From: Streptomyces sp. NBC_01210
GTDB taxonomy: Bacteria > Actinomycetota > Actinomycetes > Streptomycetales > Streptomycetaceae
DNA length: 64,000 nucleotides
Direction of reading: 5' to 3'
Assembly: GCF_036010325.1 (NCBI RefSeq)
Contig: NZ_CP108549.1
Coordinates: forward strand, 4,340,001 to 4,404,000
Positions 46,208-64,000 of the stretch are shown here, piece after piece; positions within the stretch are counted from its first letter, which is position 1, and the number at the start of each line of letters is the position of its first letter. Below the pieces are notes generated by a model that saw only the letters and a program-made list of their open reading frames with translations, did no database searches and had not been told where the DNA came from. A program made the translations under genes and the position numbers.

Positions 46208-46212
46208 GAGGT

Positions 46213-46997: not shown

Positions 46998-47055
46998 GTA
47001 GTCCCTTTCTGGACAAGCGCAGTCGACAAGGACAGACGGACAACGGGAGGACGCG

Positions 47056-47388
47056 ATGACGACCACCGAGGCGGCCGGCCCCCCGGTCACGGACCATGAC
47101 CACGGTGTGCACGGCTACCACAAGCAGAAGGACGAGCACCTCAAGCGGCTGCGCCGGATCGAGGGCCAGATCCGCGGGCTGCAGCGGATGGTCGACGAGG
47201 ACGTCTACTGCATCGACATACTCACCCAGGTCTCCGCGTCCACCAAGGCTCTGCAGTCCTTCGCGCTCCAGCTGCTGGAGGAGCATCTGCGGCACTGCGT
47301 CGCCGACGCTGCGGTGAAGGGCGGCGAGGAGATCGACGCGAAGGTCGAGGAGGCGACGAAGGCGATCGCGCGCCTTCTGCGCACCTAG
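47056..47388 (+). CDS. csoR: CsoR copper-sensing repressor
   Basis: 110 residues, the small all-helical CsoR/RcnR fold. The Cu(I) triad is Cys52 (VYCIDILTQ), His77 and Cys81 (EEHLRHC), spaced 25 and 4 as in S. lividans CsoR. The His-rich N-terminal tail ('DHDHGVHGYHKQKDEH') is also usual. The ATG at 47056 follows GGGAGGA. No copper chaperone or ATPase gene is nearby, so it regulates genes elsewhere and itself. Confidence 0.92.
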   Translation: MTTTEAAGPPVTDHDHGVHGYHKQKDEHLKRLRRIEGQIRGLQRMVDEDVYCIDILTQVSASTKALQSFALQLLEEHLRHCVADAAVKGGEEIDAKVEEATKAIARLLRT

Positions 47389-47394
47389 TACATG

Positions 47395-47432
47395 CACGGG
47401 GCGCAGCGACCGCGTCCCGGCCGCGCCCCGTG
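47395..47432 (+). terminator. Terminator between csoR and the 63-residue gene
   Basis: CACGGGGCGC and a GCGCCCCGTG arm close an 18-nt loop just after csoR and before the convergent small gene. Confidence 0.6.
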
Positions 47433-47439
47433 TTTCCGG

Positions 47440-47631
47440 TCACTCCTGCCGCGAGGGGCCTGAGAGCGCGGACCGCTCGGCCACCACCTTCAGCACCTCG
47501 TCGATACGGTCCGGGCTGAGCCGCTCCTCGTCCGCGGCCGACGCCGCGATGATCAACTCACCACACAGCTCGATCTCCGCGAGGGCCACGTGGTCCTGGA
47601 CCGTCGCAGTACTGGGCGGAGCCACGTGCAT
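47440..47631 (-). CDS. 63-residue conserved hypothetical protein
   Basis: A small acidic, probably helical protein ('LAEIELCGELIIAASAADEERLSPDRIDEVLKVV'; landmarks ERLSPDRIDEVL). High third-position GC and a compact helix pattern support coding. An ATG at 47631 is preceded by [12 protein letters not shown] remember similar short proteins in other streptomycetes beside csoR, but assign no function. Confidence 0.65.
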   Translation of the reverse strand: MHVAPPSTATVQDHVALAEIELCGELIIAASAADEERLSPDRIDEVLKVVAERSALSGPSRQE

Positions 47632-47706
47632 TCACCTCTTCCTGCCGGTGTCGACTTCCTAGCGTAGGGAGTGATACACGGACCGCGCATGGCACGTCCG
47701 GACCAT

Positions 47707-48537
47707 TTAGGCCCTGATCTTCCCGGCGTAAATGTCCCGTTGGTCGGGGAGACGCACAGCCACCGGCGTCCCGAAGTCGTACAGCAGGGTGGTCGACGCG
47801 ACGGCGACCGGGCGGCCCTGATTGGTGAAACTGAACCGGTGGCGCACCTTGCGAAGCCGGCCTTGTTCGTCGAGGTACACGTCGAACGGCACGATGTCCT
47901 TGGCGAACCCTTTCGCCGCGGCGGCCAGTGAGGCCCGCGCATGGGGTTCGGCCACCCGCGCCGCCTGCGCGATGTCCGTGGTGCCCCGGTAGTGACGCAC
48001 CTTCGTCCCGGCCAGCTCCTCCTCGCCGACGTACGTCACGTCCCGCGCGCCGCGCAGCAGTTCGGCTGCGGCGAGCGGATCGGTCGCGCCGCCGGTGACC
48101 AGGTTGCCGTCCTCGAGGGTGGTCGTGTCGACCCGCACCCACTTGTCGGCCGGTACGCCGGCGCCCCGGTTCTTCATGTACAGCGCCCCGGGCGTCAGCA
48201 GCTCGGTGATCGGACGGTGCTCGTCGGCGCCCGCTGGATCCTTGGGCAGTACGACCCTCAGCTCACCGGCCCGCCGCTTGAAGTCATATCCGCCCTCGCC
48301 CCGGATGATCACCCGGGTCCCGCCGGTCGCCATCTCCATGGACGTTCGGGCCTTGGAGCTGCCGGCCCCCGCCAGTACATCGGCGGCCTTCCGTACGTCG
48401 TCGACTCTGCCGCCACCCCGCAGGTCGTCGGCCGCGGCACCGCCGCCGACGGAACACCCGCTGCTCGCCACCGCCCCCAGTACGACGGCCGCGACGGCGA
48501 ACGCCCCGCCCCTGTGCCTGTGCTGCTGCACCACCAT
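47707..48537 (-). CDS. Putative lipoprotein (LppX/LprG-like)
   Basis: 276 residues from ATG 48537. The signal peptide ends in the lipobox Ala-Ser-Ser-Gly-Cys. The mature domain ('SKARTSMEMATGGTRVIIRGEGGYDFKRRAGELRVVL' style beta-strands, then 'FDVYLDEQGRLRKVRHRFSF') resembles the LppX/LolA-like half-barrels that carry lipids in the envelope; landmarks are VYLDEQGRLRKV and TTLLYDFGTPV. Family-level assignment only. Divergent from the small gene at 48662. Confidence 0.7.
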   Translation of the reverse strand: MVVQQHRHRGGAFAVAAVVLGAVASSGCSVGGGAAADDLRGGGRVDDVRKAADVLAGAGSSKARTSMEMATGGTRVIIRGEGGYDFKRRAGELRVVLPKDPAGADEHRPITELLTPGALYMKNRGAGVPADKWVRVDTTTLEDGNLVTGGATDPLAAAELLRGARDVTYVGEEELAGTKVRHYRGTTDIAQAARVAEPHARASLAAAAKGFAKDIVPFDVYLDEQGRLRKVRHRFSFTNQGRPVAVASTTLLYDFGTPVAVRLPDQRDIYAGKIRA

Positions 48538-48649
48538 CGCCTGCCAACCCCCAACACGGGACCGCTGCTTGTACGAGACCCCACCCGTCCCGCATAACGA
48601 CTGCCCTGGCCCCTCGTCACGCGGGGGTCCGTCCTCGACGCGGCCCCAG

Positions 48650-48655
48650 TACCGT
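48650..48655 (+). promoter_or_regulatory. -10 box of a leaderless transcript for the 58-residue gene
   Basis: TACCGT, 6 bp, then GTG at 48662, with no SD; a second GTG at 48659 is adjacent. Confidence 0.4.
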
Positions 48656-48661
48656 GGAGTG

Positions 48662-48838
48662 GTGCCCCAGCAAGACCCGACCAGCGACACCTCGCCACAC
48701 CGAGCCACCACCACCGAACGCGGCTCATTCGCCACCGCCCGCTGCACCTGCGGTTGGGCCGGGCCTGCCCGACGTTCCCGCGAACGGGCGCGTACGGATG
48801 CCGAGTTGCACACATCGACACCTGCGACGGAACACTGA
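48662..48838 (+). CDS. 58-residue hypothetical protein with a Cys pair
   Basis: The product reads VPQQDPTSDTSPHR then 'FATARCTCGWAGPARRSRERARTDAELH'. The RCTCGW core with following Arg-rich helix is a pattern I remember in short streptomycete proteins and may bind zinc. The apparent leaderless promoter and high third-position GC support coding. Confidence is limited because the frame is short and no SD is present. Confidence 0.5.
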   Translation: MPQQDPTSDTSPHRATTTERGSFATARCTCGWAGPARRSRERARTDAELHTSTPATEH

Positions 48839-48931
48839 CGCAGCCCTTTGCCCCTGCGGCAGAGGGAAAGCCGCCGCCCACCCCCGGGAACCCCCCGCCC
48901 CCAGGAACCGTCTCGTTCCCCAGGAGGCCCC

Positions 48932-50506
48932 ATGGACCGGCGCGCACTGCTCACCACTGCTGTAGTTCTCACCGCTGCCGCCTGCACAGGCAAGAACGGC
49001 AGCGGCGCAACGGCAGCTCCTGCCGGCACGCCCGGCGCCGGCCGCTCACCGGCCGGATCCGCGTCCGCCACCACCATCACCACCGCCGCGGCGCCCGACT
49101 GGACCGCGCTCGCGCGCGGCCTCGACGGGAAGCTCGTACGCCCCGGTGACGCCGCGTACCGCTCCGCCCGGCAGCTCTACAACACCCGCTTCGACTCACT
49201 GAAGCCCGCCGCCGTCGCCTATGTCGCAGGCGAGGACGACGTCAAGGAGTGCCTGGCCTACGCCAGAGCCCACCGCGTCCCCGTCTCCATCCGGAACGGC
49301 GGCCATTCCTATGCGGGCTGGTCCTCAGGCAACGGCCGCCTCGTCATCGATGTGTCCTCGCTGAACCGCGTCGGACAGGACGGCTCCATCGGCGCCGGCG
49401 CCAAGCTCATCGACGTCTACGCCGGTCTCGCCCGGAACAACCGCACCATCCCCGCGGGCTCGTGCCCCTCCGTCGGCGTGTCCGGTCTCACCCTCGGCGG
49501 CGGTCACGGCGTCACCTCACGCGCGTACGGTCTGACCTGCGACAGCCTCACCGCGGCGACCATCGTCACAGCCGACGGCAAGCAGCTGACCGTGAGCGCC
49601 ACCGAGAACAAGGAGCTCTTCTGGGCGCTGCGCGGCGCCGGCAACGGCAACTTCGGCGTCGTGACCCGGCTCCACTTCCGTACCCATCCCACGCCGCCGA
49701 CCGTCACCGCCTATCTCACCTGGCCCTGGGCGAAGGCCGCGGCCGTCCTCAGCGCCTGGCAGCAGTGGGGCCCGGACCAGCCGGACGAGATATGGTCGTC
49801 CGCGCATCTCGCCGCCGGGCCCGGCGGCACGCCGACCCTCTCCATAGCCGCGTTCTCCCTCGGCAGCGAGGGCGACCTCAAGAACGCGCTCGACCGCCTC
49901 GCCGACAAGGCCGGCTCGCCCGCCCGCTCGGTCTCGGTGCGCCGCCGCAGCTATCGGGAGGCGATGCTCGGCTACGCGAACTGCACGACGATCACCCAAT
50001 CGCAGTGCCATCTGCCGGGCACCACTCCGGGCCGTACGCCCCAGGGCGCGCTGCAGCGCGAGACATACACCGCGGCCTCCGACTTCTTCGACCACAACCT
50101 CTCCCCGGCCGGAGTGCGCGCACTGATCTCCGCGACCGAGGCGTTCACCCGGATCAAGCCCGGCCAGGGCGGGGGCGGCGGCTCCATCGCGCTCACCGCG
50201 CTCGGTGGAGCGGTCAACCGCGTGGACCCGCTGGCGACGTCGTTCGTCCACCGGCGGTCCCGGATGCTCGCGCAGTACATCGGCTCCTGGCAGGCCGGCA
50301 CCTCGGGCACCGCCCAGCAGGCCTGGCTCAAAAATGCCCATGCGTCGATGCGCCGTTATGCGTCGGGAGCCGCGTACCAGAACTACATCGATCCCACGCT
50401 GACCGACTGGCGCCGGGCGTACTACGGGCCTGCCGCGGACCGCCTCACCCGGCTGAAGAAGCAGTACGACCCGGACAGGGTCTTCAACTTCCCGCAGGCG
50501 CTGTAG
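48932..50506 (+). CDS. Secreted FAD-linked oxidase (berberine-bridge type)
   Basis: 524 residues. An N-terminal signal with a lipobox-like AAAC is followed by a Thr/Ala-rich linker, the FAD-binding PCMH domain and the C-terminal BBE motif ('YQNYIDPTLTDWRRAYYG', 'FNFPQAL'). His125 (NGGHSYAG) and Cys178 (AGSCPSVGVSG) are in the positions that bind FAD bicovalently in GOOX/BBE enzymes. It would oxidise an extracellular sugar or alcohol using oxygen. The ATG at 48932 follows CAGGAGG. Confidence 0.88.
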   Translation: MDRRALLTTAVVLTAAACTGKNGSGATAAPAGTPGAGRSPAGSASATTITTAAAPDWTALARGLDGKLVRPGDAAYRSARQLYNTRFDSLKPAAVAYVAGEDDVKECLAYARAHRVPVSIRNGGHSYAGWSSGNGRLVIDVSSLNRVGQDGSIGAGAKLIDVYAGLARNNRTIPAGSCPSVGVSGLTLGGGHGVTSRAYGLTCDSLTAATIVTADGKQLTVSATENKELFWALRGAGNGNFGVVTRLHFRTHPTPPTVTAYLTWPWAKAAAVLSAWQQWGPDQPDEIWSSAHLAAGPGGTPTLSIAAFSLGSEGDLKNALDRLADKAGSPARSVSVRRRSYREAMLGYANCTTITQSQCHLPGTTPGRTPQGALQRETYTAASDFFDHNLSPAGVRALISATEAFTRIKPGQGGGGGSIALTALGGAVNRVDPLATSFVHRRSRMLAQYIGSWQAGTSGTAQQAWLKNAHASMRRYASGAAYQNYIDPTLTDWRRAYYGPAADRLTRLKKQYDPDRVFNFPQAL

Positions 50507-50534
50507 TACGTACGGGCGGACGCCGAGCCGGGCG

Positions 50535-51257
50535 TCAGGCCGCCAGGTCCTTGTCCCCGGCGCCGGACCCCTCGGTCCTCGGCTCCGGCACGCCGAGCGT
50601 CCCCGGCAGATCCGCCGACCCCGCCGCCGCCCGCCTCGACCGTACGAGCCACGCCACCCGCCCCGACCCGGCGACCGCCGACATGAGCGGTGTCAGCAGC
50701 GCCAGCGCGAGTGGCGCGAGCAGCAGCGTCACCGCCGTCCCGAGCGCGAATCCACCGACGACGTCGGTCGGGTAGTGCACGCCCATGTAAACGCGGCAGA
50801 AGCCCTCGGCCAGCGCGAGACCGATCGCGGCGAGCCCGAACTTCCGGTGCGCGACGAAGAGTCCGGCGCCGAGGGCCATCGCCATCGTCGCGTGGTCGCT
50901 CACGAAGGAGTAGTCGGTCTTTCCGGCCACCAGGCCTTCAATGCCCTGGTGGTCCAGGAACGGCCGCGGCCGTTCGACGAATCCGCGGATGGGGATGTTG
51001 ACCAGCAGCGCGAGTCCGGCGGCGAGCGGCGCCCAGATGAGCCCGGCGACCGCCGCGACCGAGTCCTCGGTGGTGCCGCGCCGGCGCACGCTCCACCAGC
51101 ACCAGAGCACCACCAGCACCATCGCGAGCATGATTCCGTACTCGCCGATGAATTCCATGGTGCCGTCGAGCCACGACGGGGCGTCCTTGGCCAGGCCGTT
51201 GATGTCGTAGAGCAGGCTGAGATCGGGGTTCGACCCATCCGATGCGAGTCCAGCCAT
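50535..51257 (-). CDS. PAP2-family membrane phosphatase
   Basis: 240 residues with five to six TM helices. The PAP2 signature is present: 'VERPRPF' (K/RxxxxxxRP region), 'SFVSDHATMA' (PSGH-like, here SDHA) and 'RVYMGVHYPTDVVGG' (SRxxxxxHxxxD-like). It may act on undecaprenyl or lipid phosphates. In the second motif the usual PSGH reads VSDH, keeping the catalytic His. The ATG at 51257 has AAGGGG upstream. Confidence 0.82.
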   Translation of the reverse strand: MAGLASDGSNPDLSLLYDINGLAKDAPSWLDGTMEFIGEYGIMLAMVLVVLWCWWSVRRRGTTEDSVAAVAGLIWAPLAAGLALLVNIPIRGFVERPRPFLDHQGIEGLVAGKTDYSFVSDHATMAMALGAGLFVAHRKFGLAAIGLALAEGFCRVYMGVHYPTDVVGGFALGTAVTLLLAPLALALLTPLMSAVAGSGRVAWLVRSRRAAAGSADLPGTLGVPEPRTEGSGAGDKDLAA

Positions 51258-51502
51258 CTGCTGCGGCCCCTTGCCTTGTCGCCTGCCGACGCACCTCCGA
51301 GTGCGCCGCATCTGCCAACCCCCGTGGTCAGTGCGGTGTCTGCTCCATGGTCAGTGCGCCGTCCCAGTCCAGGGAACGCCCCGCTCCCCGTATACGTTCC
51401 ACTCTCCACCGAACGATCACCATGACGTTATCGAAGAGTGACACATCGTTGCAGCTCAGAGACGTGGCTCAGCGGAGGGTTCCGGCCACGCCCGACGGCT
51501 CG
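51258..51502. other. 245-bp spacer between two minus-strand envelope genes
   Basis: No gene seen. A GGAACG/CGTTCC inverted pair (16-17 bp apart) lies near 51375-51405 in the presumed PAP2 promoter. GGAAC resembles an ECF-sigma -35, but no matching -10 was convincing. Confidence 0.35.
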
Positions 51503-52513
51503 TCAGGCTTCCGGCAACGAGGTCGGCAGCGCCTTCGCGCCGTCCTTGGTGACCCTGGTCGCACCGAAGTAGTCCGGAGTGTCGATCTTGTCGAAGCGGA
51601 TCACGGCGCCGGTGTACGGAGCGTCGATCATGTACCCGCCGCCGACATAGAGCCCGACGTGCCGGATCGCCCGCGAGTTGGTGAGGTCGTCGGAGAAGAA
51701 GACCAGATCGCCGGGGAGCAGCTCGTCCCGCGACGGATGCTCGCCGGCGTTGTACTGGTCGTTCGCGACGCGCGGCAGCTCGATCCCGACGGTCCGGTAC
51801 GCGGCCTGGGTCAGCCCGGAACAGTCGAAGCGTCCGCCCTGCTCGGGCGTGCCGTTGCCGCCCCACAAATACTCGGTACCGAGCCTCTTCTGCGCGAAGT
51901 AGATCGCCGCGGCCGCCTGCCGCGACGGCTGGACCCGCCCGACAGGCCTGGCGAAGCTCTTCTCCAGGGTGCGGATGACCTTCACATAGTTCTGTGTCTC
52001 GCGGTACGGCGGTACGCCTTGGTACTTGATGACGGCGTAGGCGCCGGCGTTGTACGCGGCGAGCATGTTGTCGGTCGCGTTGCCGGGCGCTTTCTTTACA
52101 TATCCGGCCAGTTCGCAGTCGTACGAGGCAGCGGACGGAATCGCGTCGGCCGGATCCCAGACGTCGCGGTCGCCGTCCTTGTCGCCGTCGACGCCGTGCG
52201 CGGCCCAGGTACCGGGGATGAACTGCGCGATGCCCTGGGCCGCGGCGGGGCTCTGCGCCTTGGGGTTCCAGCCGCTCTCCTGGTAGAGCTGGGCAGCGAG
52301 CAGAGCGGGGTTGATGGCCGGGCAGAGGTTGCCCCACTTCTGTACGAGCGGCTGATAGAGCGCGGGCACGGCACCCTTGGCAAGGCCGACCGCACGCCCG
52401 CCGCTTCCGCCCATGAGCCCGGCGGCCGCGGAGTAGGTACCGACGACGAGCAGCACGACGAAGCTCAGGCACAGCCCGATCCCGACTCCACCGGCCATCC
52501 AGACTTTTCGCAC
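51503..52513 (-). CDS. Bifunctional cell-wall hydrolase: SLT lysozyme + NlpC/P60
   Basis: 336 residues. A signal anchor (~10-32) precedes a lytic transglycosylase domain with Glu79 (QLYQESGWNP, then 'GIAQFIPGTWAAHG' and 'NMLAAYNAGAYAV'). A C-terminal NlpC/P60 endopeptidase follows, with catalytic Cys in FDCSGL and His in RHVGLYVGG. It would cut both glycan strands and stem peptides. The combination and position next to T4SS-like genes resemble the VirB1/VirB-associated wall hydrolases that open the wall for secretion machines. Confidence 0.88.
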   Translation of the reverse strand: MRKVWMAGGVGIGLCLSFVVLLVVGTYSAAAGLMGGSGGRAVGLAKGAVPALYQPLVQKWGNLCPAINPALLAAQLYQESGWNPKAQSPAAAQGIAQFIPGTWAAHGVDGDKDGDRDVWDPADAIPSAASYDCELAGYVKKAPGNATDNMLAAYNAGAYAVIKYQGVPPYRETQNYVKVIRTLEKSFARPVGRVQPSRQAAAAIYFAQKRLGTEYLWGGNGTPEQGGRFDCSGLTQAAYRTVGIELPRVANDQYNAGEHPSRDELLPGDLVFFSDDLTNSRAIRHVGLYVGGGYMIDAPYTGAVIRFDKIDTPDYFGATRVTKDGAKALPTSLPEA

Positions 52514-52567
52514 GCTCTCAACCCTCCCCCATCCAAGCCGCGTTCCTGCCCGTCTCCACTCGCGAGC

Positions 52568-53362
52568 CTAGGGTTTGCGTCCCACGCCGCCGAACATGGC
52601 GACCTCCTCGGCAGGCACCTCGGGCCGCCAGCGGGAACACGACACCACGCCGGGCTCCGCCATCTCGAGACCGTCGAAGTACCGGGTGAGCTGCTGCGGG
52701 GTGCGCTGGGTGAGCCGGGGCGTGCCGTGCTCGTTCCAGAACGCGACGGCGGCGTCCACATCCGGCATCGCCGGGCTGGTGATGGTGTGGGACAGAACGA
52801 GATGACTGCCGGCGGGCAGCGCGTCCATGAGGCGGCGGACGATGCCGTACGACTCCTCGTCGTCCTCAATGAAGATCACGACACCGAGCAGCATCAGCGC
52901 GACGGGCCGGGTGAGGTCGAGCGTCCGGGCGGCGCTCTCCAGGATCGTGTCGACATCGCGCAGATCGGCGTCGAGATAGTCGGTGCAGCCCTCGGGCGTA
53001 CTGGTGAGCAGGGCGCGGGCGTGCGCGAGGACCAGGGGATCGTTGTCCACGTACACGACGCGCGCCTCGGGCGCGGCACGCTGGGCCACCTCGTGGGTGT
53101 TGTCGGCGCTGGGCAGCCCGGTCCCGATGTCGAGGAACTGCCGGATCCCCACCTCGGCGGCGAGATGATGCACGGCCCGCCCCAGGAACAGCCGGTCCGC
53201 GAGGGCGTAGTCGCCGATTCCGGGATGGAGCGCGCGGATCTGGTCCCCGGCTTCGCGGTCGACGGAGTAGTTGTCCTTGCCGCCGGTCCAGTAGTTCCAG
53301 ATCCGGGCGGTGTGGGGGCGCGTCGTGTCGATCCTTGCGAGTAAGTGCGCGTTGTCGGTCAC
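52568..53362 (-). CDS. SAM-dependent methyltransferase (DUF574 family)
   Basis: 264 residues. 'TARIWNYWTGGKDNYSVDREAG' is the family hallmark (landmark WNYWTGGKDNY), and 'FLDIGTGLPSADNTHEVAQ' with 'VVYVDNDPLVLAHARALL' binds SAM. Streptomycetes carry dozens of paralogues; substrates are mostly unknown. The GTG at 53362 is a conservative start; upstream in-frame sequence QHQPSQAELDILDRV may also be translated. It separates the wall hydrolase from the secretion-like cluster. Confidence 0.8.
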   Translation of the reverse strand: MTDNAHLLARIDTTRPHTARIWNYWTGGKDNYSVDREAGDQIRALHPGIGDYALADRLFLGRAVHHLAAEVGIRQFLDIGTGLPSADNTHEVAQRAAPEARVVYVDNDPLVLAHARALLTSTPEGCTDYLDADLRDVDTILESAARTLDLTRPVALMLLGVVIFIEDDEESYGIVRRLMDALPAGSHLVLSHTITSPAMPDVDAAVAFWNEHGTPRLTQRTPQQLTRYFDGLEMAEPGVVSCSRWRPEVPAEEVAMFGGVGRKP

Positions 53363-53728
53363 ACGGTCCAAGATATCCAACTCGGCTTGGGACGGCTGGT
53401 GTTGGGTCAGACGGTGCTTCTGTCCAGTGGCGGGCCGACGTCGGACGGGAGCAACGCGGCCAGGGCGAGAAGGGCGGCAGCGCCCAGATGGGGGCACAAC
53501 GACAGTTATTGCCCGGAGTCACGCTCCGTGATACACAGAGTGACCGTACACGCTCCTCGCGCCTTCTCCGGTCCATGCCGCCGCAGGTCAGGACGGCTGG
53601 ACCGGTCATACGTGCGGAGATCGGGTAAAGAGACCCGCCAAGTCGGCTTACGGGGGCGGTTTCATCAGCGAAGATAGAGCGACGACCCCTGCCGAGCGGC
53701 AGGGGTACTGAACAACCCAACAGGGGCG
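53363..53728. other. Divergent intergenic region with a hairpin before the cmd-like cluster
   Basis: Contains ACCCCTGCC-GAGC-GGCAGGGGT (53685-53706), a perfect 9-bp stem 22 bp before the first gene of the cluster. No other gene is supported here; short frames are composition shadows. Confidence 0.5.
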
Positions 53729-54046
53729 GTGAGTTACATGATCCTGGCAGCCGAAAAGGGCGACATCACCACCATCATCGGCGGAATCGCCCCGAACTGG
53801 GGGCCTTTCGGGAGCCTGGGTAACGAGGCCAGAGTGATGATCGAGGTCGTGATGGCCGTGGCCATCCTCCTCTGCCTCGGCATCGCGATCTGGGGCGCGG
53901 CGAAACAGCGCATCGGAGCGACGGCACTCCGCGACACCTTCAGCGCCGAACAGGGCAAGGGCCTGATCGTCGCCGGTCTGACCGGCGTCTTCATCATCGG
54001 GTCGCTGGGGACCTTGTTCACCATCGTGTACGGGATGGCTGTCTGA
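53729..54046 (+). CDS. Small integral membrane protein, first gene of the secretion-like cluster
   Basis: 105 residues from GTG 53729 (an ATG at 53738 is alternative). It has two TM helices, 'MIEVVMAVAILLCLGIAIWGAA' and 'GLIVAGLTGVFIIGSLGTLFTIV', with a short positively charged loop. Size and topology resemble VirB2/PrgI-like pilin or scaffold subunits encoded at the head of Gram-positive T4SS operons. I believe this is the last-lettered member of the S. coelicolor cmdABCDEF cluster (membrane proteins affecting differentiation), by order from memory. Confidence 0.72.
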   Translation: MSYMILAAEKGDITTIIGGIAPNWGPFGSLGNEARVMIEVVMAVAILLCLGIAIWGAAKQRIGATALRDTFSAEQGKGLIVAGLTGVFIIGSLGTLFTIVYGMAV

Positions 54047-54246
54047 CCCCCCGCCGGTCCTCTCCGGGCTTGCCCGGCCCACCCTTTGAGGTTGCGTTTC
54101 CCTGATGTCGAGTCACCACACCACGCCCGCAAGGGAAGCAGCACGACTACCGTCGTACTACGTGACGGAATACGCGTCGTACTACGCGGAACTGCAAACG
54201 GTTGAGGTATGGGGTCTCCCCAGTGGAGCGAGGGGAAGTACGCGAG

Positions 54247-55107
54247 ATGAGCCTCGGTGACGAGCACGGCTACGGCGGCGAGTCGGGCAGCCGTACGGAG
54301 GAGGGCTTCGGCGGCTCGGGCCAGACGCGTACGCGCCTGCCGGGCAACGGCGACACCGACGTATACGGCGGCGCGCGCCGACCCGTGCGGAACTCACGCT
54401 CCCTCATCACGGTGGTGGGCGTGGTGGTGCTGCTGATCGCGGCTATCGCGTTCGCGAACCAGGGCGGCGCCGGGGGCGAGGACGACCCGTCGGGGGGCGG
54501 AGGCAAGGGGGCGGCCGGGGCTCCGACGGCGGCGACGGGCGTGAAACCGGTGAGGGAGAAGGACGGGGGGATTCCTTCGGGGTACGCGAAGGATGAGCAG
54601 GGGGCGCAGAGTGCGGCGGCGAACTATGCGGTTGCGCTCGTGTCCGCCGACATCCTGAAGCCCGCCCGGCGGCGCGAAATCGTGCGACAGCTCTTCGTCG
54701 CCGCGAAGGGCGGGGAGCTGGAAGCCAAACTCGACAAGGCGTACAACCAAGAGTTCCTCGACAAGATCGGCCTCGACGCGAATGGCAACGCTGCCAAGGG
54801 GCTGACCTACGTGTCCCGCACAGCACCTGTTGGGACCAAGGTCACGCAGTACACAGACACGTCAGCCACGGTGGAGGTCTGGTGCACCGGCGTCTTCGGC
54901 ACGGCCGGAGTCAGCTCCACCAACCCGGTGACCAATGACTGGTTCACCATGACTCTCAAGCTCCAGTGGGCAGACGGCGGCTGGAAGGTCGACAGCTTCT
55001 CCCAGAAGGACGGCCCGGCACCGGTGAACGCCGACCGTACGGCCTCCAGCGCCGACGAGATCGCCAAGGCAGTCGAGCAGTACGGAGGGTTCACGTATGC
55101 CCGATAG
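54247..55107 (+). CDS. Single-pass TcpC/VirB8-like protein
   Basis: 286 residues. Cytoplasmic Gly-rich tail, TM helix at about 60-78 ('SLITVVGVVVLLIAAIAFA'), then a low-complexity linker and an NTF2-like beta domain ('YTDTSATVEVWCTGVFG', 'WFTMTLKLQWADGGWKVDSFSQKDGPAP'; landmarks TVEVWCTG and WADGGWKV). The NTF2-like fold after one TM is the plan of VirB8/TcpC assembly proteins. The ATG at 54247 has GAGGGGAAG upstream; earlier in-frame starts lack it. Overlaps the next gene by 11 bp. Confidence 0.7.
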   Translation: MSLGDEHGYGGESGSRTEEGFGGSGQTRTRLPGNGDTDVYGGARRPVRNSRSLITVVGVVVLLIAAIAFANQGGAGGEDDPSGGGGKGAAGAPTAATGVKPVREKDGGIPSGYAKDEQGAQSAAANYAVALVSADILKPARRREIVRQLFVAAKGGELEAKLDKAYNQEFLDKIGLDANGNAAKGLTYVSRTAPVGTKVTQYTDTSATVEVWCTGVFGTAGVSSTNPVTNDWFTMTLKLQWADGGWKVDSFSQKDGPAPVNADRTASSADEIAKAVEQYGGFTYAR

Positions 55108-56413
55108 CCGACGCCACGCGCTCAAGCTCACAGCCGCTTTTACAACCGTGCAGACAACAGCGGTGCTCACGGCATCGAGAGCCTTCGCGGCGCCGACGCC
55201 CAAGCCGACGCCGTCCAACAAGGACAACTGCGACCTCATCGTCGGCCCCGCACGTGACTACTGCGACAACGGCGCCCCCGGCGGCGCCCCCCGCTCCACC
55301 CCCCTCGACCCCGCCAACGCCCTCGACCCCCTCTCCTCCCTCGCCCGCGGCTGCGCCGACGCCGCCGTCTGGACCATCGACCAGCTCTCCAAAGCGGTGA
55401 ATTCGACCGCCACCGTCGACTTCACCAACTCCGCCTTCCGCGCCCAGTACGCCATCGTCTTCGCCGCTTCCACCATCCTCACCCTCGTCCTCTGGCTCCT
55501 CGCCGTCGCCAAGCGCGCCGTCCGCGGTGTCCCCCTCACCACCGCTATCTCCGAAGCCGTCGGCTTCCTCTGGCTCACCGTCCTCGCGTCCGCCTTCACC
55601 CCGCTGATCCTCTACACCCTTGTCTCCGCGACCGACGGCGTCACCGAGGTCATCGCAGGCGGCACCAGCGGGCAGACCGACCAGTTCTTCGGGAACTTCT
55701 CCGGTGCCCTGAAGAAGGGGACCGACATCGGCGGCGGGCCGATCATGCTGATCGTCGTCTCACTCGTCACGATCCTCGCCGCCGGCGTCCTCTTCCTCGA
55801 GCTGTTCATCCGCGCGATCCTTCTCTACGTCGGCGCCCTCCTCGGCGTCGTCGTCTACTCCGGACTCGTCGACAAGAACATGTGGGGACGGGTCCGCCGC
55901 TGGGCCGGAATCATGATCGCGATCATCATGGTCAAGCCAGTGATCGCGATCGTCCTGGGTCTCGCGGGCGCGCTCTCCGCCGAGAACGGACCCAACTCCT
56001 TCTCCGCGGTCGTCTCCGGCCTCGCGATCATCCTGCTCGCCATCTTCGCCTCCGCGGTGATCTACCGTTTCGTCCCGGGTTTCGGCGACGAGATCGTCGC
56101 CTCCCGCAACAACCGCCTGCAGAACGGCGCCGAGAACGCCGCAGCCGCCGTCATCAGCTCGCCCGCCAACCTTGTTACCCAGGGCATCAAGACCCATAGC
56201 AGCCGCGGCAACCAGGGCGGCGGCGACAGCAACCACGGCAGCGCCCCACGCCCCGCCAACCCCATCAGCGGAGGCGTCGCCGCGCACAGCAGCCGCCCCT
56301 CCGGCGGGGGCACCGCAGGCGGCGGATCCGCCGCGCCCCCGCCCCGTAACAGCAGTCCCGGATCCAGCACCCCGCACAGCAACCGCAAGAGCACAGGAGG
56401 TGGAGGGCGTTGA
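55097..56413 (+). CDS. VirB6/TrbL-like polytopic membrane protein
   Basis: 438 residues. A signal-like N-terminus (ending AFAAP) and Cys-containing region are followed by six to seven TM helices between ~115 and 330, and a Ser/Gly/Asn-rich cytoplasmic tail. The central helices and glycine-rich loop ('GGGPIMLIVVSLVTILAAGVLFLELFIR' in outline; landmark ELFIRAILLY) match the VirB6/TrbL channel subunit pattern. It starts within the previous gene after GGAGGG and overlaps the next by TTGA. Confidence 0.72.
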   Translation: MPDSRRHALKLTAAFTTVQTTAVLTASRAFAAPTPKPTPSNKDNCDLIVGPARDYCDNGAPGGAPRSTPLDPANALDPLSSLARGCADAAVWTIDQLSKAVNSTATVDFTNSAFRAQYAIVFAASTILTLVLWLLAVAKRAVRGVPLTTAISEAVGFLWLTVLASAFTPLILYTLVSATDGVTEVIAGGTSGQTDQFFGNFSGALKKGTDIGGGPIMLIVVSLVTILAAGVLFLELFIRAILLYVGALLGVVVYSGLVDKNMWGRVRRWAGIMIAIIMVKPVIAIVLGLAGALSAENGPNSFSAVVSGLAIILLAIFASAVIYRFVPGFGDEIVASRNNRLQNGAENAAAAVISSPANLVTQGIKTHSSRGNQGGGDSNHGSAPRPANPISGGVAAHSSRPSGGGTAGGGSAAPPPRNSSPGSSTPHSNRKSTGGGGR

Positions 56414-57960
56414 CGACCCAGTCCCAAGCGATCACGCCCCGCCGTACGTATCTCATCGGCCGTGCCCGGCCGAACGCGATCGTCGGCAAGAACCGCGAGA
56501 CCGGCGAGATCGCGCTGATCATCGCCGGCGCGTTCCTCGGCATGATGAGCGGGCTGCTGGTCCCCGTCCTGTCCCTGCGGATCGTGCTCCTGATGGGCTT
56601 CCCGCTCCTCGCTCTCGCCGCTGTGTACGTCCCGTTCAGGCACCGCACCTTCTACAAGTGGTTCGAGATCAACCGCAGTTACAAGCGCACCCTGCGCAGC
56701 GGCACCCACTACCGCTCCTCCGCCACCGAGGCCGGTATCCGTCTCGACGGCCGTGAGATCGAGGTCGGCCCTCCCCCGGGCATCGGCAGGATCAACTGGC
56801 TCGCCGCGCCCTTCGGCCCGGACGAGATCGCCGTACTGCTGCATGCCGACCGCCGTACCGTCACCGCCGCCATCGAGATCGAGGGCCCAGGCGTCGGACT
56901 GCGCGACAGCGAGGACCAGGAGGCGCTCGTCGATCGCTTCGGCACGCTGCTGAAGCATGTGGCCAACGGCGACGGCTTTGTCACGCGCCTTCAGATGCTC
57001 GCCCGTACGCTCCCCGCCGACCCCGACGCACACGCCAAGGACGTTGCCCAGCGCGGCGACCAGCAGACGCCGATGTGGCTGCGCGACTCCTACGACCAGC
57101 TGCAGTCGATGGTCTCCACCTCCAGCGAGCAGCACCGCGCGTACCTCGTCGCCTGCATGCACTACACCCGTGAACTGGCCGCCGAGGCCCACACCATGGC
57201 CCGTGCCGCCCGCCCGCAGTCCGGCCGCAAGCTCGACAAGGACGCGGGCCTCGCCGTCGTCATGGCCCGCGAGCTCACCGACATCTGTGCGCGCCTCGCC
57301 GAGGCGGACATCCGGGTCCGCCAGCCGCTCGGCCAGGGCCGTCTTGCCTCCCTCGTCCACTCGATGTACGACCCCGACCACCCCATCGACCACATCCAGG
57401 CGATGACGAAACGGAACGCCTGGCCGGCCGAACTGGACGCGATGCAGCCGACGTATCTGCAGGCGAAGACCCGTGAGTCGTCCACCCGCGCGCCCTGGTG
57501 CCACTCCACCGCCTGGGTGAAGGAGTGGCCGATGACGCCGGTCGGCGTCAACTTCCTGGCGCCGCTGCTCGTCCACACGCCCGATGTGATCCGTACCGTC
57601 GCGGTCTGCATGGACCTGGAGCCGACCGAGGTCGCCATCGAGCGGATGCTCACCGAGAAGACGAACGACGAGGCGGACGCGAGCCGCGCCGCCAAGATGA
57701 ACCGGACCGTCGACCCGCGCGACATCGCCGCGCACGGACGGCTCGACCAGCGGGGTGAAGATCTGGCGAGCGGTGCGGCAGGGGTCAACCTCGTCGGGTA
57801 CATCACTGTGTCATCGCGTTCGCCCGAAGCCCTGGCCCGGGACAAGCGCACGATCAGGGCCTCGGCCGGCAAGTCCTATCTGAAGCTGGAGTGGTGCGAT
57901 CGTGAGCACCACCGGGCTTTTGTGAACACCTTGCCGTTCGCGACCGGCATCCGACGCTGA
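56410..57960 (+). CDS. SCO6880-family protein (VirB4-associated membrane component)
   Basis: 516 residues. Two TM helices (~34-77, 'LIIAGAFLGMMSGLLVPVL' and 'LLMGFPLLALAAVYVP') lead into a long cytoplasmic domain with no P-loop ('YRSSATEAG', 'VDRFGTLLKHVA', 'YLVACMHYTRELAAEA'). This is the layout of the 'SCO6880 family', found beside VirB4-type ATPases in actinobacterial secretion clusters; it resembles a VirB3 plus VirB4 N-terminal half. The TTG start overlaps the previous stop (TTGA) after GGAGG. Confidence 0.75.
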   Translation: MTTQSQAITPRRTYLIGRARPNAIVGKNRETGEIALIIAGAFLGMMSGLLVPVLSLRIVLLMGFPLLALAAVYVPFRHRTFYKWFEINRSYKRTLRSGTHYRSSATEAGIRLDGREIEVGPPPGIGRINWLAAPFGPDEIAVLLHADRRTVTAAIEIEGPGVGLRDSEDQEALVDRFGTLLKHVANGDGFVTRLQMLARTLPADPDAHAKDVAQRGDQQTPMWLRDSYDQLQSMVSTSSEQHRAYLVACMHYTRELAAEAHTMARAARPQSGRKLDKDAGLAVVMARELTDICARLAEADIRVRQPLGQGRLASLVHSMYDPDHPIDHIQAMTKRNAWPAELDAMQPTYLQAKTRESSTRAPWCHSTAWVKEWPMTPVGVNFLAPLLVHTPDVIRTVAVCMDLEPTEVAIERMLTEKTNDEADASRAAKMNRTVDPRDIAAHGRLDQRGEDLASGAAGVNLVGYITVSSRSPEALARDKRTIRASAGKSYLKLEWCDREHHRAFVNTLPFATGIRR

Positions 57961-57978
57961 ACGAGAGGGCAGTCCGCC

Positions 57979-59391
57979 ATGCGAGATCCGCTGTCCGTCT
58001 TCACGGATGCCTTCACCGCCTTCCTCTTCGGGAAGGTCGAGACGACCCGCCTGCCCGTCCGTACGTCGACGGGGCAGGCGCAGGCCGTCTACCTCCCCAC
58101 CGCCGCGCCCGGCCTCGGCGACTCGGGCGTGATCATCGGCCGCGAGGTGTACAGCGGCAAGGGCTATATCTACGACCCCTTCCAGCTGTACGGCCAGCAG
58201 CTCCCGGCCCCCCACTGGCTGGTGCTCGGTGAGTCCGGCAACGGCAAGTCGGCACTCGAGAAGACGTACGTACTACGGCAGTTGCGGTTCCGCGACCGCC
58301 AAGTGGTGGTGCTGGACGCCCAGGGCGAGGACGGGGTGGGCGAGTGGAACCTCGTCGCCCAGGAACTGGGCATCACACCCATCCGGCTGGACCCGATGAC
58401 AGCGCTGGACGGCGGCATACGGCTCAATCCGCTCGACCCCGCGATCACGACGACGGGACAGCTGGCTCTGCTCCGCACGATCATCGAGGTCGCCATGGGG
58501 CACGGACTCGACGAGCGGTCGGGCTTCGCGCTGAAGGTGGCGCACGCGTACGTCAACGAGGCGATCGTCGACCGGCAGCCGGTTCTGACCGACATCGTGG
58601 ACCAGCTGCGGCACCCGGAGGCGGAGTCCGCCGAGTCGATGAACGTCGACCTGGACGACGTACGGGCATGGGGCCTCGATGTCGCCCTCGTCCTGGACCG
58701 ACTGGTCGACGGTGACCTGCGCGGCATGTTCGACGGGCCGACGACGGTCGGGATCGATCTGGACGCGCCGCTGATCGTCTTCGACCTCTCGCACATCGAC
58801 CGGAACTCGATCGCGATGCCGATCCTGATGGCGATCGTGGGGGTGTGGCTGGAGCACACCTGGATCCGCCCGGACCGAAAGAAACGCATCTTCCTGGTGG
58901 AGGAGGCGTGGCACATCATCAACTCGCCCTTTGTGGCCCAGCTCTTCCAGCGCCTGCTGAAGTTCGGCCGCCGACTGGGCCTGTCCTTCGTGGCCGTCGT
59001 CCACCATCTCTCGGACGTGGTCGACGGGGCTGCGGCGCGGGAGGCGGCGGCGATCCTGAAGATGGCGTCGACGAGGACGATCTACGCGCAGAAGGCGGAC
59101 GAGGCACGGGCTACGGGCCGAGTGCTCGGCCTGCCGCGATGGGCGGTGGAAATCATTCCCACGCTCACTCCCGGAATCGCGGTCTGGGACGTCAACGGCA
59201 ATGTCCAGGTGGTCAAACACCTGGTGACGGAGGCGGAGAGACCGCTGGTCTTCACGGACCGGGCGATGACGGAATCCTCGGGGCCTGCGCTGCCCGAGGA
59301 CGTGGCCGCCGCGGAGTGGGAGGCGGAGCAGCGCGCGGCCCTGATCGAACAGCATCAGCTGGACGAGTCCTCCGAGTCAACGGTGGCATGA
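57979..59391 (+). CDS. cmdB: VirB4-like ATPase of the cmd cluster
   Basis: 470 residues. Walker A is GESGNGKS (84-91), Walker B is 'KRIFLVEEAWHII' with Glu-Glu, and 'VHHLSDVVDG' and 'STRTIYAQKADEARATGRVLGLP' follow as in VirB4/TraC ATPases. The N-terminal half of a normal VirB4 is supplied by the preceding gene. In S. coelicolor the ATP-binding member of this cluster is, as I recall, cmdB (SCO4127), needed for normal differentiation and antibiotic control. Energises assembly or transport. Confidence 0.8.
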   Translation: MRDPLSVFTDAFTAFLFGKVETTRLPVRTSTGQAQAVYLPTAAPGLGDSGVIIGREVYSGKGYIYDPFQLYGQQLPAPHWLVLGESGNGKSALEKTYVLRQLRFRDRQVVVLDAQGEDGVGEWNLVAQELGITPIRLDPMTALDGGIRLNPLDPAITTTGQLALLRTIIEVAMGHGLDERSGFALKVAHAYVNEAIVDRQPVLTDIVDQLRHPEAESAESMNVDLDDVRAWGLDVALVLDRLVDGDLRGMFDGPTTVGIDLDAPLIVFDLSHIDRNSIAMPILMAIVGVWLEHTWIRPDRKKRIFLVEEAWHIINSPFVAQLFQRLLKFGRRLGLSFVAVVHHLSDVVDGAAAREAAAILKMASTRTIYAQKADEARATGRVLGLPRWAVEIIPTLTPGIAVWDVNGNVQVVKHLVTEAERPLVFTDRAMTESSGPALPEDVAAAEWEAEQRAALIEQHQLDESSESTVA

Positions 59392-59392
59392 C

Positions 59393-61276
59393 ATGCGCGA
59401 CCGCCGTCACTACCAGCACGCTCACGAGCGGGACGAGCGCGGCATTCCCGACGGCCTGCTGGTGGGCCTGCTCGGTTTTCTACTCGGGCTGAGCCTGCTG
59501 GTCTGGACGGCCACGGGGCTGGCGGGCGTGATCACGCACGGCTCATGGCCGACGGGTGTCACCTACGCCGGTACACCGCTGGCCATACGCGCGCTGGCGT
59601 CCAAGCCGCACGACCTCCAGGCCGCATGGCCGGACACTCCGCCTGCGGAGCTGTCGGGGTACGGGCTGTTCTGGGGCCTGGCCATAGGCGAGTTGATGGT
59701 GCTGGTGGTGGTGACGGTGTTCGTCCTCGGCACGGTCGCCCGCTGGCACGTGGGCCGCGCGGGCCGCGTATCCGACACTCCCTCGCCCCGGACCGCCCCC
59801 GCCGCGAAGACGGAGGACCGGGACCCGGCGGGTTCCTCGACCGCGGGCTCCTCGACCGCGAGTTCCCCGACCGCGGGCGCGCACACGGGAAGCCCGGACC
59901 CGACGAAGCCGGCTGACGGCCGCCTCGGGCAGCCGCGGGATGTCGGCCAGGGAGCGAGCGGCCGGGACCCCCGCGCCGCCTCCGGCCCCGGCACCCCCTC
60001 GCCGGGAGCGCCCACAGGCCCGTACGCCGGGGCCACAAGCCCCGACCCCGCTAGGGAGCAAGGCGCGGGCGGAGGGGCCGACGCCCAGGGCTCCGGCATT
60101 CCCACAGGCTCGTACGCCGCAGCCGCAAGCCAGGACGCGCACGCGTACCCGGGAACCGGGTACCAGCCCGGCGAGTCCAGACACCCATCAGCCGCAGCCC
60201 CGGGCGACGGCGCAGCGGCGAGCCCGCACCCGGCCCATCCCCCGGCGAGCCGGGGCGCTGCCACGAGCCCGCACACCCGGCCCGCAGGCGCCAACCCCCT
60301 TATGGGGCAAGGCACGGGCGGATGGGACCCGCACGCCGCCCTGCCCGCACCCCGCACCCCCCGTATCCTCTACGGCGACCCCGCCACCCGCCGGCCCGTC
60401 ACCGTTCAGGCCGTCCTCGACGCCGAAGGGCCGGCGCTCGTCGTCACCTCCGATCCCACCGTGTGGGCCGAGACGAAGGGCGCGCGGGCCAAGCTCGGCC
60501 CTGTTCTCGTCTACGACCCCGGGCATCTCTGCGACACCCCCGCCCGCCTCCACTGGTCGCCCACCGCGCACTGCGAGGACGCCGCCACCGCCGCCGCCCG
60601 CGCCGTCGCCCTCCTCGCGCCCATAAGGCCCCGCGCCCTCCTCGACGCCGCCATGGCAGACACCGCGGAGACACTCCTGCGCTGCTGGCTGCATGCCGCC
60701 GCGGTGGACGGACGCCCGTTCAAGCAGCTCCACCGCTGGGCACAGGGCGGCGGCGCCCACGACGCCGTACGCATCCTCCGTACGCATCCCAAGGCCACCG
60801 CCGGACTCGCCGGGCTGCTCGAGTCCACGCTCACCGGGCATCCCGAACGCCGGGAGATCGCCCAGCAGTTGGTGGTGCGCGCCCTCTCCGTGCTCTCCTC
60901 GATCCACATCCGTGAGGCTTGCACCCCGAACCGAACCGATTCCCTCACCTTGGAATCATTCATAAACGAAGGGGGAACCCTTTATGTGGTGGGTGAACCG
61001 ATCGAGGACCCCAGAACCCACCCCGGCGCAATGCCTCTGCTCACCGCACTCGCCTCAGACGTGGTCGAGCACGGCCGCCGCATGGCCGCACGGTCATCCG
61101 ACGGCCGGCTCGACCCACCAATGACGCTCGTCCTGGACGACGTCGCGGCCGTGGCTCCCCTTCCCAGCCTTCCGGAGCTGCTGGCAACCGGTCAGGACCA
61201 GGGACTGCCGACCCTGGTCCTGCTCCGTTCCGCCGAACAGGCGCGCGCCCGCTGGCCCGAGCCGCTCACCCAGTAA
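59393..61276 (+). CDS. VirD4/TraG-like coupling protein lacking a P-loop
   Basis: 627 residues. Two TM helices (~20-45 and ~95-115) precede a ~190-residue Pro/Gly/Ser-rich linker with PTGPYAGATS and PTGSYAAAAS-type repeats. The C-terminal domain follows: 'GPALVVTSDPTVWAETKGARAKLGPVLVYDP' and 'LVLDDVAAVAPLPSLPELLATGQDQGLPTLVLLRSAEQARARW' (landmarks LVLDDVAA, ATGQDQGL) match VirD4/TraG after its P-loop. The P-loop itself is missing at the expected position, so nucleotide binding is doubtful. Starts 1 bp after cmdB's stop. Confidence 0.72.
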   Translation: MRDRRHYQHAHERDERGIPDGLLVGLLGFLLGLSLLVWTATGLAGVITHGSWPTGVTYAGTPLAIRALASKPHDLQAAWPDTPPAELSGYGLFWGLAIGELMVLVVVTVFVLGTVARWHVGRAGRVSDTPSPRTAPAAKTEDRDPAGSSTAGSSTASSPTAGAHTGSPDPTKPADGRLGQPRDVGQGASGRDPRAASGPGTPSPGAPTGPYAGATSPDPAREQGAGGGADAQGSGIPTGSYAAAASQDAHAYPGTGYQPGESRHPSAAAPGDGAAASPHPAHPPASRGAATSPHTRPAGANPLMGQGTGGWDPHAALPAPRTPRILYGDPATRRPVTVQAVLDAEGPALVVTSDPTVWAETKGARAKLGPVLVYDPGHLCDTPARLHWSPTAHCEDAATAAARAVALLAPIRPRALLDAAMADTAETLLRCWLHAAAVDGRPFKQLHRWAQGGGAHDAVRILRTHPKATAGLAGLLESTLTGHPERREIAQQLVVRALSVLSSIHIREACTPNRTDSLTLESFINEGGTLYVVGEPIEDPRTHPGAMPLLTALASDVVEHGRRMAARSSDGRLDPPMTLVLDDVAAVAPLPSLPELLATGQDQGLPTLVLLRSAEQARARWPEPLTQ

Positions 61277-61856
61277 GCCGAGCAGCCGGCCGCGGGAGCT
61301 GACGCTTGACCTCGAGCTCCACGTCCCGTGCCGTGGAATCCCCCGGCACGGGTACGGAGTCCCCGCTCGCCACAAACCCGATGCGCCGGTAGAACGCCTC
61401 GGCACGCGCATTGCGCTCGTCCACATACAGCCGCACCCGCTCCACAGGCGGCCCCGCCAGCGACCAGGACCACTCCAGAGCCGCCTCGAACAGCGCCTCC
61501 GCAAGCCCCGCACCACGCACCTCGGGCCGTACGAACACCCCGACCACATGCGTCTGGTCGGTCTTTGCCGCCTCCCCGAACCGCACCTCTCCGGCCGGCC
61601 GCTCGACGAGGACGGTGAGTGTGCCGCCCCACCGCCCGTCCGCCAGCTCAGCGATGAACTGGCGCGCGACAACCCCCTCCGCCGCCGCGGAGGTTCGGTC
61701 CTGCCAGAAGCCGTCCGGCCGCTCCAGGGCCTGCTCGTACGTCTCCAGAAATGCGAGGGGCGCGACCGGGTCCTGCAGAGCGGCGAGCCGGATCTCCCTG
61801 GCCTTCGCCCACTCCTCGGCGCCCACCGCACGGATGACATAGTCGATCTGATCCAT
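61266..61856 (-). CDS. GNAT-family N-acetyltransferase
   Basis: 196 residues. The acetyl-CoA loop is 'VRPEVRGAGLAEALFEAALEW' (landmark RPEVRGAGLA) and the C-terminal 'YVDERNARAEAFYRRIGFV' is standard GNAT. Acceptor unknown. It is convergent with the last cmd-like gene and overlaps its 3' end by 11 bp. It lies just downstream of the rRNA operon terminator on the same strand. Confidence 0.85.
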   Translation of the reverse strand: MDQIDYVIRAVGAEEWAKAREIRLAALQDPVAPLAFLETYEQALERPDGFWQDRTSAAAEGVVARQFIAELADGRWGGTLTVLVERPAGEVRFGEAAKTDQTHVVGVFVRPEVRGAGLAEALFEAALEWSWSLAGPPVERVRLYVDERNARAEAFYRRIGFVASGDSVPVPGDSTARDVELEVKRQLPRPAARLTG

Positions 61857-61912
61857 CTGCCGATACTGACCGGGCCGGGGCGCTTGAGCAAGCAATGGGT
61901 CCTGAACGCAGA

Positions 61913-61943
61913 AAAGCCCCGCACCATAACGGTGCGGGGCTTT
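61913..61943 (-). terminator. rRNA operon terminator
   Basis: AAAGCCCCGCACC and GGTGCGGGGCTTT are a perfect 13-bp inverted repeat with a 5-nt loop, ending in T residues on the minus strand, 13 bp after the 5S gene. Confidence 0.85.
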
Positions 61944-61955
61944 CCCACAATGATT

Positions 61956-62074
61956 GTTCGGCGGCGTCCTACTCTCCCACAGGGTCCCCCCTGCAGTACC
62001 ATCGGCGCTGAAAGGCTTAGCTTCCGGGTTCGGAATGTAACCGGGCGTTTCCCTAACGCTATGACCACCGAAAC
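61956..62074 (-). rRNA. rrf: 5S ribosomal RNA
   Basis: On the minus strand the gene begins GTTTCGGTGGTCATAGCG and ends GGACGCCGCCGAAC, the characteristic actinobacterial 5S sequence of ~117-119 nt. The ends pair as helix I. The exact mature ends may differ by 1-3 nt. Confidence 0.95.
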
Positions 62075-62160
62075 TCTATGAAGATGTACGACCCGGAATC
62101 CCCACAGGGGACTCGACAGTTCGTTGCTTCAGAACTAACACAGTGGACGCGAGCAACTGA

Positions 62161-64000
<1,840 letters not shown>

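Follow-up and report, generated by a model that had tools for sequence, protein, structure and literature searches.

What can a type IV secretion system (T4SS) do in a bacterial chromosome when no relaxase accompanies it? The locus that raises this question lies in a 64,000-nucleotide stretch of Streptomyces sp. NBC_01210 (contig NZ_CP108549.1, positions 4,340,001 to 4,404,000; this whole stretch is called the window below), where an initial annotation had described six tightly coupled genes as a T4SS-like core. The cluster (53729-61276) is a minimal Gram-positive type IV secretion core, and it is the cmdABCDEF cluster of S. coelicolor (SCO4126-4131) in reverse, that is cmdF, E, D, C, B, A. 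This correspondence rests on gene content and order relative to the published description (PMC2782261, available to us in part), in which six co-directional genes and an SLT protein likewise appear, and was made without alignment to S. coelicolor sequence. Our answer, to which we give a probability of about 0.75, is that Cmd is a domesticated, VirB4-driven envelope channel that is used in development and operates without a coupling protein. The genes are as follows.

53729-54046, + strand: cmdF, 105 residues with two transmembrane segments; putative small channel subunit (VirB2/pilin-like or other), assigned by elimination
54247-55107, + strand: cmdE, 286 residues from ATG; VirB8-like bitopic protein
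55097-56413, + strand: cmdD, polytopic membrane protein, VirB6-like in topology
56410-57960, + strand: cmdC, two transmembrane helices (putatively in the VirB3 position) plus the VirB4 N-terminal domain
57979-59391, + strand: cmdB, VirB4 ATPase half
59393-61276, + strand: cmdA, degenerate VirD4-type coupling protein with two transmembrane segments, no P-loop and a truncated C-terminus

The tight coupling originally described is borne out, with intergenic spacings from cmdF to cmdA of 200, -11, -4, 18 and 1 bases (negative values are overlaps). The mechanically called frame of cmdE starts at a TTG (54202), and its length is counted here from the ATG. These reading frames are not chance, because CmdB and CmdF have close relatives in hundreds of genomes.

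The protein that carries the argument is CmdA, which had been called VirD4-like. It is a VirD4 relative, with a TraG-D_C match of 0.0027 that falls below the Pfam cut-off, but no ATP-binding site can be recognized in it. Two stretches of the gene were compared with intact coupling proteins.

60341-60448, + strand: CmdA residues 317-352, without a P-loop, in the position where intact coupling proteins have theirs (by alignment)
61118-61162, + strand: CmdA Walker B, reading L-D-D in place of the D-E of intact homologues, shortly before the end of the protein

The same is seen elsewhere in the genus. In a profile alignment none of 48 Streptomyces CmdA rows (45 distinct) has GK in the P-loop columns, Walker B is mostly L-D-D, and the proteins end soon after it wherever the stretch was long enough to tell. 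Coupling proteins of plasmids and of other T4SS loci all have the P-loop GK followed by S, T or G and the Walker B DE (20/20), and they continue for 115-126 residues from the last motif. A wider set of named loci, the best 80 of 511 confirmed in a search seeded with a Catenulispora CmdB, gave 57 alignable CmdA orthologues, whose tails measure 0-33 residues and none of which has a canonical P-loop (two have a chance GK in the linker). No cmdA match was present at 16 of the 80, of which four are Catenulispora or Catenulisporales and 12 are others (nine named Kitasatospora). P-loop status was scored by profile alignment throughout; scoring by regular expression mis-anchored in several long frames and was discarded. 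Judged by its sequence, CmdA is a dead coupling protein, and the functional VirD4 ATPase of a conjugation system is missing from the cluster. Lacking the P-loop of its coupling protein, the machine should therefore not load relaxosomes by itself.

CmdB presents the opposite picture. It matches AAA_10 at 7.8e-13 (Pfam) and, over the whole sequence, the VirB4 structure 4ag5 in the PDB at 1.6e-6; a VirB4-type ATPase is thus present, with 81-97% identity across the order.

58228-58251, + strand: CmdB Walker A, GESGNGKS, intact; the lysine is residue 90

In S. coelicolor, substitution of either residue 90 or residue 404 abolished complementation, according to the accessible text of PMC2782261; position 404 in the window protein is not a lysine. 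Because CmdA has decayed while the Walker A lysine of CmdB is intact and needed, the host appears to keep a VirB4-driven machine and to discard the DNA-loading motor. With that motor discarded and CmdB kept at about 90% identity, the host function should therefore be VirD4-independent.

The other subunits complete the core. Profiles and models uphold the split VirB4 of the initial annotation, with CmdC as the N-terminal part (SCO6880-family match, 6.8e-54) and CmdB as the ATPase half; these two are the only proteins of the cluster with Pfam or NCBIfam matches above cut-off. The N-terminus of CmdC contains two transmembrane helices, matches no family and lies outside the fold match to VirB4, and it may occupy the VirB3 position. 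Profiles and models also support CmdE as the VirB8-like scaffold of the system, although neither the CmdE nor the CmdC profile matched any PDB sequence. CmdD has about five hydrophobic segments and one distant plasmid match annotated as TrbL (H122, 8e-6), and its topology and position, together with elimination, suggest the VirB6-like channel that had been proposed. CmdF has two hydrophobic segments and is 78-99% identical in the order loci compared. A cmdF match was found in 383 of 392 Streptomyces genomes, and a homology search gave 510 relatives, with no Pfam domain in any of the 120 listed. Topology and elimination point to a small channel or filament subunit. The loop between its transmembrane segments reads GAAKQRIGATALRDTFSAEQGKG in the window protein.

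Of 151 Streptomyces genomes, 149 have a near full-length CmdB, matched over 430 or more of its 470 residues (at least 874 bits, 89-97% identity); in the two exceptional genomes (L127, L128) a contig ends inside the cluster. All 147 genomes of the order sample have a CmdB match, including 13 outside Streptomyces at 81-84% identity, and four matches in this sample (G120, G225, G241, G270) are weak, split or partial. In the class sample of 393 genomes, where 44 are listed as the same genus and four candidates were scored per genome, an orthologue was present in one of the 349 others (G288, 748 bits), whose assembly is a draft in 970 contigs and 6% contaminated; the remaining genomes outside the genus gave at most 205 bits. 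The named loci come from Streptomyces, Kitasatospora, Streptacidiphilus, Embleya, Peterkaempfera, Catenulispora, a few broader labels and one Saccharothrix. The cluster is a vertically inherited part of the core genome. Its near-universal presence in the genus and order samples is unlike the sporadic distribution of an integrative conjugative element (ICE), in agreement with the earlier view that it is not a mobile element. Some departures from the standard arrangement were seen: one genome (G812:C1; L125, L126) has the cluster twice, about 18 kb apart, with parts of each copy looking broken; at L129 (G281) cmdF and cmdE are separated by three unrelated genes, one of them apparently coding for an O-methyltransferase; and stand-alone cmdF genes of 89% identity occur away from any cmd cluster at L123 (G056:C9) and L124 (G677:C4), where the 20 kb read around them matched neither MobF nor a coupling protein.

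The differentiation defects mentioned in the initial annotation are confirmed in the available parts of PMC2782261. There, cluster null mutants show phenotypes in three species, and cmdB-F are needed for normal development. The SCO4126 (cmdA) deletion looks wild type, while other null mutants are light grey with seemingly fewer spores, and anucleate spores reach 8% and 6% in mutants versus 0.1%. A common actinorhodin phenotype has also been published for tgdA and cmdBCDEF mutants, in a list that does not include cmdA. The decay of CmdA fits the wild-type look of the SCO4126 deletion. Unpublished data quoted in PMC2782261 describe no sporulation phenotype for SCO6878 and SCO6881 mutants.

The wall hydrolase with SLT and NlpC/P60 domains that had been placed just upstream is present, but it is divergent from the cluster and a methyltransferase gene intervenes. 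The neighbouring features are these.

51503-52513, - strand: SLT + NlpC/P60 wall hydrolase, a VirB1-like partner (Pfam SLT 4.5e-16, NLPC_P60 1.4e-24)
52568-53497, - strand: SAM methyltransferase (PF04672), between the wall hydrolase and cmdF
61956-64000, - strand: 5S-23S rRNA operon, after the cluster

The hydrolase occupies the position of S. coelicolor SCO4132/tgdA and also adjoins cmdF in six non-Streptomyces loci (L042-L046, L068; 50-59% identity), so that Pfam and synteny across genera link a VirB1-like enzyme to the cluster. The intervening methyltransferase was seen in the window and at L057, and in none of the other order loci compared. The contigs of many drafts stop no more than a few kb from cmd, on whose far side the rRNA operon lies in the window, and in some genomes the cluster looks incomplete for that reason. 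Among 20 flanking proteins (25.5-61.9 kb), 19 were assigned a Pfam family; regulators, enzymes, proteins of phosphate uptake and polyphosphate kinase are represented. The kinase gene lies with CHAD and NUDIX genes at 36.5-40.4 kb of the window, and genes of these three kinds are also near cmd in two of three Catenulispora-family loci compared (L044 and L045; not L043). As first noted, signs of mobility are lacking: Pfam found no relaxase or integrase in these 20 proteins (the rest of the genome was not searched for a relaxase), the window contains no tRNA, and 46000-62150 has no direct repeat of at least 20 bases, shorter ones not being excluded.

For the assembly of the machine, its cargo, the roles of CmdF and CmdD and the use of Cmd by plasmids, we infer the following scheme. 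Cmd would have settled in the chromosome of the ancestor of Streptomyces and Catenulispora. CmdB and CmdC would form a VirB3/VirB4 ATPase base, CmdD the VirB6-like inner-membrane channel and CmdE the VirB8-like extracytoplasmic scaffold; CmdF may be a small subunit of the channel or of a filament, and local opening of the wall would fall to the SLT/NlpC protein. ATP hydrolysis by CmdB would assemble or drive an envelope-spanning channel (or filament) in aerial hyphae, the loss of which would disturb branching, septation and chromosome partition. Plasmids without a channel motor would bring a relaxase, a coupling protein and some channel subunits, and probably use the CmdB and CmdC of the host.

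This last step comes from a search for cmd genes on plasmids. CmdF gave 13 records in tblastn against 72,556 plasmids: ten (88 kb to 1.7 Mb) match CmdB and CmdC too, and three are circular Streptomyces plasmids with a lone cmdF of 82-93% identity. CmdD gave 29 records; the best 16, at 42-58%, come from Streptomyces plasmids with sizes of 24-130 kb. For CmdC, matches of at least 38% were confined to the ten CmdB/CmdC plasmids (among the 25 of 95 records listed). Fourteen of the best 16 cmdD plasmids were examined over the whole record with a CmdB profile, and 13 of them lack VirB4; NZ_CP109398 gave two weak matches (23.8 and 13.7 bits), and three T4SS plasmids used as controls gave 249-555 bits. 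The absence of VirB4 rests on this profile; Pfam AAA_10, run on 15 records, matched only two controls and CP108176 (15.8 bits), all below cut-off. Nine of the 14 combine a MobF relaxase with a VirD4-type coupling protein that is intact (in NZ_CP109058, TrwC at 1.5e-41 and T4SS-DNA_transf at 7e-17). Neither was detected in three linear plasmids, and two larger plasmids were read in part. CmdB and CmdC were not found on the VirB4-less plasmids with cmd parts, and the conserved C-terminal tail of CmdE is absent from the three plasmid copies that were aligned. All three plasmid CmdFs keep the loop GAAKQRIGATALRDTFSAEQGKG, one of them with a single substitution; in each of the three aligned sister systems the loop is different. 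On linear plasmids of 24-28 kb (L137, L140, L141) the captured cmdD lies near a large protein with a P-loop-like motif and another protein annotated as ATP-binding; these pairs reached no Pfam cut-off in L137 and L141, and MobF was unmatched in all three. A phage-plasmid nature of the cmdF plasmids was considered and rejected, with no cmdF match in 50,697 phage records.

Two families of plasmid coupling proteins were then compared, that of NZ_CP109058 (five relatives of at least 53%) and that of NZ_CP108823 (five relatives of at least 70%). VirB4 is absent by the whole-record search from 11 of these 12 plasmids, and seven of the 11 carry cmdD, cmdE and/or cmdF.

NZ_CP109058, NZ_CP107781: cmdD, E and F carried
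NZ_CP109138, NZ_CP108823, NZ_CP108979: cmdD and E carried
NZ_CP063809: cmdD carried
NZ_CP108355: cmdF carried
CP107817, NZ_CP149448, NZ_CP089537, NZ_CP043961: no VirB4 and no cmd part
NZ_CP023993 (S. malaysiensis): own full T4SS, no captured part

The plasmids were found through cmd genes, and two of them served as the seeds, one for each family; without these two queries VirB4 is absent in 9/10 and cmd parts occur in 5/9. Two plasmids outside the families were also scanned: NZ_CP117711 lacks both VirB4 and cmd parts, and in NZ_CP108170 a VirB4 of its own is present while the stretch scanned showed no captured part.

The origin of the plasmid copies was examined with maximum-likelihood trees. 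In that of CmdD (43 proteins), 11 plasmid copies fall inside the chromosomal Streptomyces clade (25 rows, 100/100) and 12 proteins from other T4SS loci fall outside it (97/90), several of these on long branches that the tree software marks as unsure. The monophyly of plasmid cmdD has support of only 62/75. CmdE gave the same picture more weakly (92/90). Plasmid cmdD genes are nested in the chromosomal clade and were therefore taken from host chromosomes; that they are relics of a lost plasmid T4SS is ruled out by the position of the other T4SS loci in the CmdD tree.

Related systems help to place Cmd. The closest are sister T4SSs of large Streptomyces plasmids and chromosome arms, such as those of pMDJK44.2, the 1.7-Mb linear plasmid of Kitasatospora sp. 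NBC_01519 and loci L088, L087, L060, L079 and L080, which have the same order cmdF-E-D-C-B-A and a CmdB 39-50% identical to that of the window. In pMDJK44.2 a transglycosylase/C40 gene adjoins, as in the window. Unlike the window, the sister systems have a coupling protein that is intact, with GK in the P-loop, DE in Walker B and a full C-terminus, and their CmdF loop has diverged. At L060, L080 and L082 (sister systems of G134 and G090) an open reading frame follows whose beginning resembles a DNA methylase-helicase; in G134 it runs on for more than 5,600 codons without a stop. SCO6878-6881 and a T4SS of the window's own genome (G000:C1, 3.91 Mb) share with Cmd an SCO6880-family VirB4 N-half and a VirD4-type protein, but their coupling protein is canonical (L066, MAPRAGKS). 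The archaeal Ced DNA import system and ComB of H. pylori are T4SSs that work without VirD4 and keep VirB4, much as Cmd does, although Cmd has no known import activity. For cmdABCDEF itself, PMC2782261 had already given the developmental phenotype and the likeness to VirB4; its accessible text holds neither the dead coupling protein nor the VirB8 and VirB3/4N assignments, the wide distribution or the plasmid capture. Our literature search, by title and start of abstract and with most subscription journals outside it, found no earlier report of CmdA decay or plasmid-captured cmd genes. The cluster is known; as far as could be seen, the decay of its coupling protein and its capture by plasmids are new.

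Several observations weigh against a domesticated, coupling-protein-free channel. CmdF and CmdD match no Pfam or NCBIfam family, and the two best Foldseek matches of CmdE are plastid ARC6 domains, with a T4SS protein third. The CmdA match is weak or cut at seven of the 80 named loci, and in the one genome examined from another family of the order (L042) CmdA has a full-length C-terminus with GPARSGKA and LDD, so that decay is incomplete there; this protein is possibly an intermediate. We dropped a reading of its P-loop as damaged from GKA alone, GKG being found in the coupling proteins of L071, L076 and L077. We know of no Cmd complex, cargo or filament seen so far, and the effect on sporulation may be an indirect one. 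Deletion of the cluster reportedly left the transfer of an SLP2-derived plasmid unchanged (PMC2782261, in the part available, where the data are not shown), but related genes are present on this plasmid itself.

Among the alternatives, one is compatible with the domesticated channel: plasmids might conjugate through Cmd, borrowing CmdB/CmdC and the wall hydrolase of the host and supplying a relaxase, a working coupling protein (the part that the host discarded) and captured, plasmid-adapted VirB6-, VirB8- and CmdF-type subunits. On sequence grounds we regard this as a serious but somewhat less than even prospect. The VirB4-less plasmids with cmd parts, the lack of such parts on the plasmid with its own T4SS, the nesting of plasmid cmdD and cmdE in the chromosomal clade and the retained CmdF loop all speak for it, and there is a precedent in SGI1, whose own mating-pore subunits take the place of those that its IncC helper plasmid encodes (PMC5389848, in the part available); that helper is a conjugative plasmid, whereas Cmd would be a vertically inherited chromosomal locus. 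Four of the 11 VirB4-less plasmids have no cmd part, relaxase and VirD4-type protein were both detected in only nine of the 14 cmdD plasmids, a second VirB4, albeit interrupted by an in-frame stop, is present in G741, the one host checked together with a named plasmid, and the SLP2 result tells against it as well. The captured subunits might instead be decoys that block or tune the host Cmd (exclusion, sporulation delay) and have no role in transfer. The carriage of a mere subset without CmdB and CmdC, and the missing CmdE tail, would suit decoys, but relaxase and coupling protein without a channel ATPase on nine of 14 cmdD plasmids fit use better than sabotage, and we consider interference unlikely.

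Slightly less probable still is the proposal of the 2009 authors (PMC2782261, as far as available) that CmdB acts in the manner of FtsK/SpoIIIE and pumps chromosomal DNA through the sporulation septa. The anucleate spores agree with it, and the accessible part of a review groups VirB4 with SpoIIIE/FtsK/HerA motors; yet the part that was lost is the DNA-loading coupling ATPase, the same review describes direct substrate recruitment by VirB4 ATPases as not shown, and since branching and septation are disturbed too, the missegregation may be a by-product. That cmd is a decayed ICE kept by chance seems very improbable. A mid-chromosome 'defective ICE' in all 11 Streptomyces strains of one survey (PMC9513070, seen in part) may be cmd, and one genome has two copies with broken parts, but CmdB stays 89-97% identical to that of the window in 149 genomes while only CmdA decays, null mutants have phenotypes in three species, and the flanks lack integrase, relaxase and long direct repeats.

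Taken together, the decay of the coupling protein and the capture by plasmids make the question of a relaxase-free T4SS in a core genome testable, as a case of a domesticated system which mobile elements may put to their own use. Plasmids with their own T4SS, with cmd parts and with neither make up a natural part-swap series for T4SS compatibility. The plasmids also point to an unrecognized conjugation route, several such elements being typed 'non-mobilizable' by current tools. If this holds, a vertically inherited, developmentally required T4SS would double as a shared conjugation chassis, and the new route would matter for the movement of gene clusters among antibiotic-producing Streptomyces.

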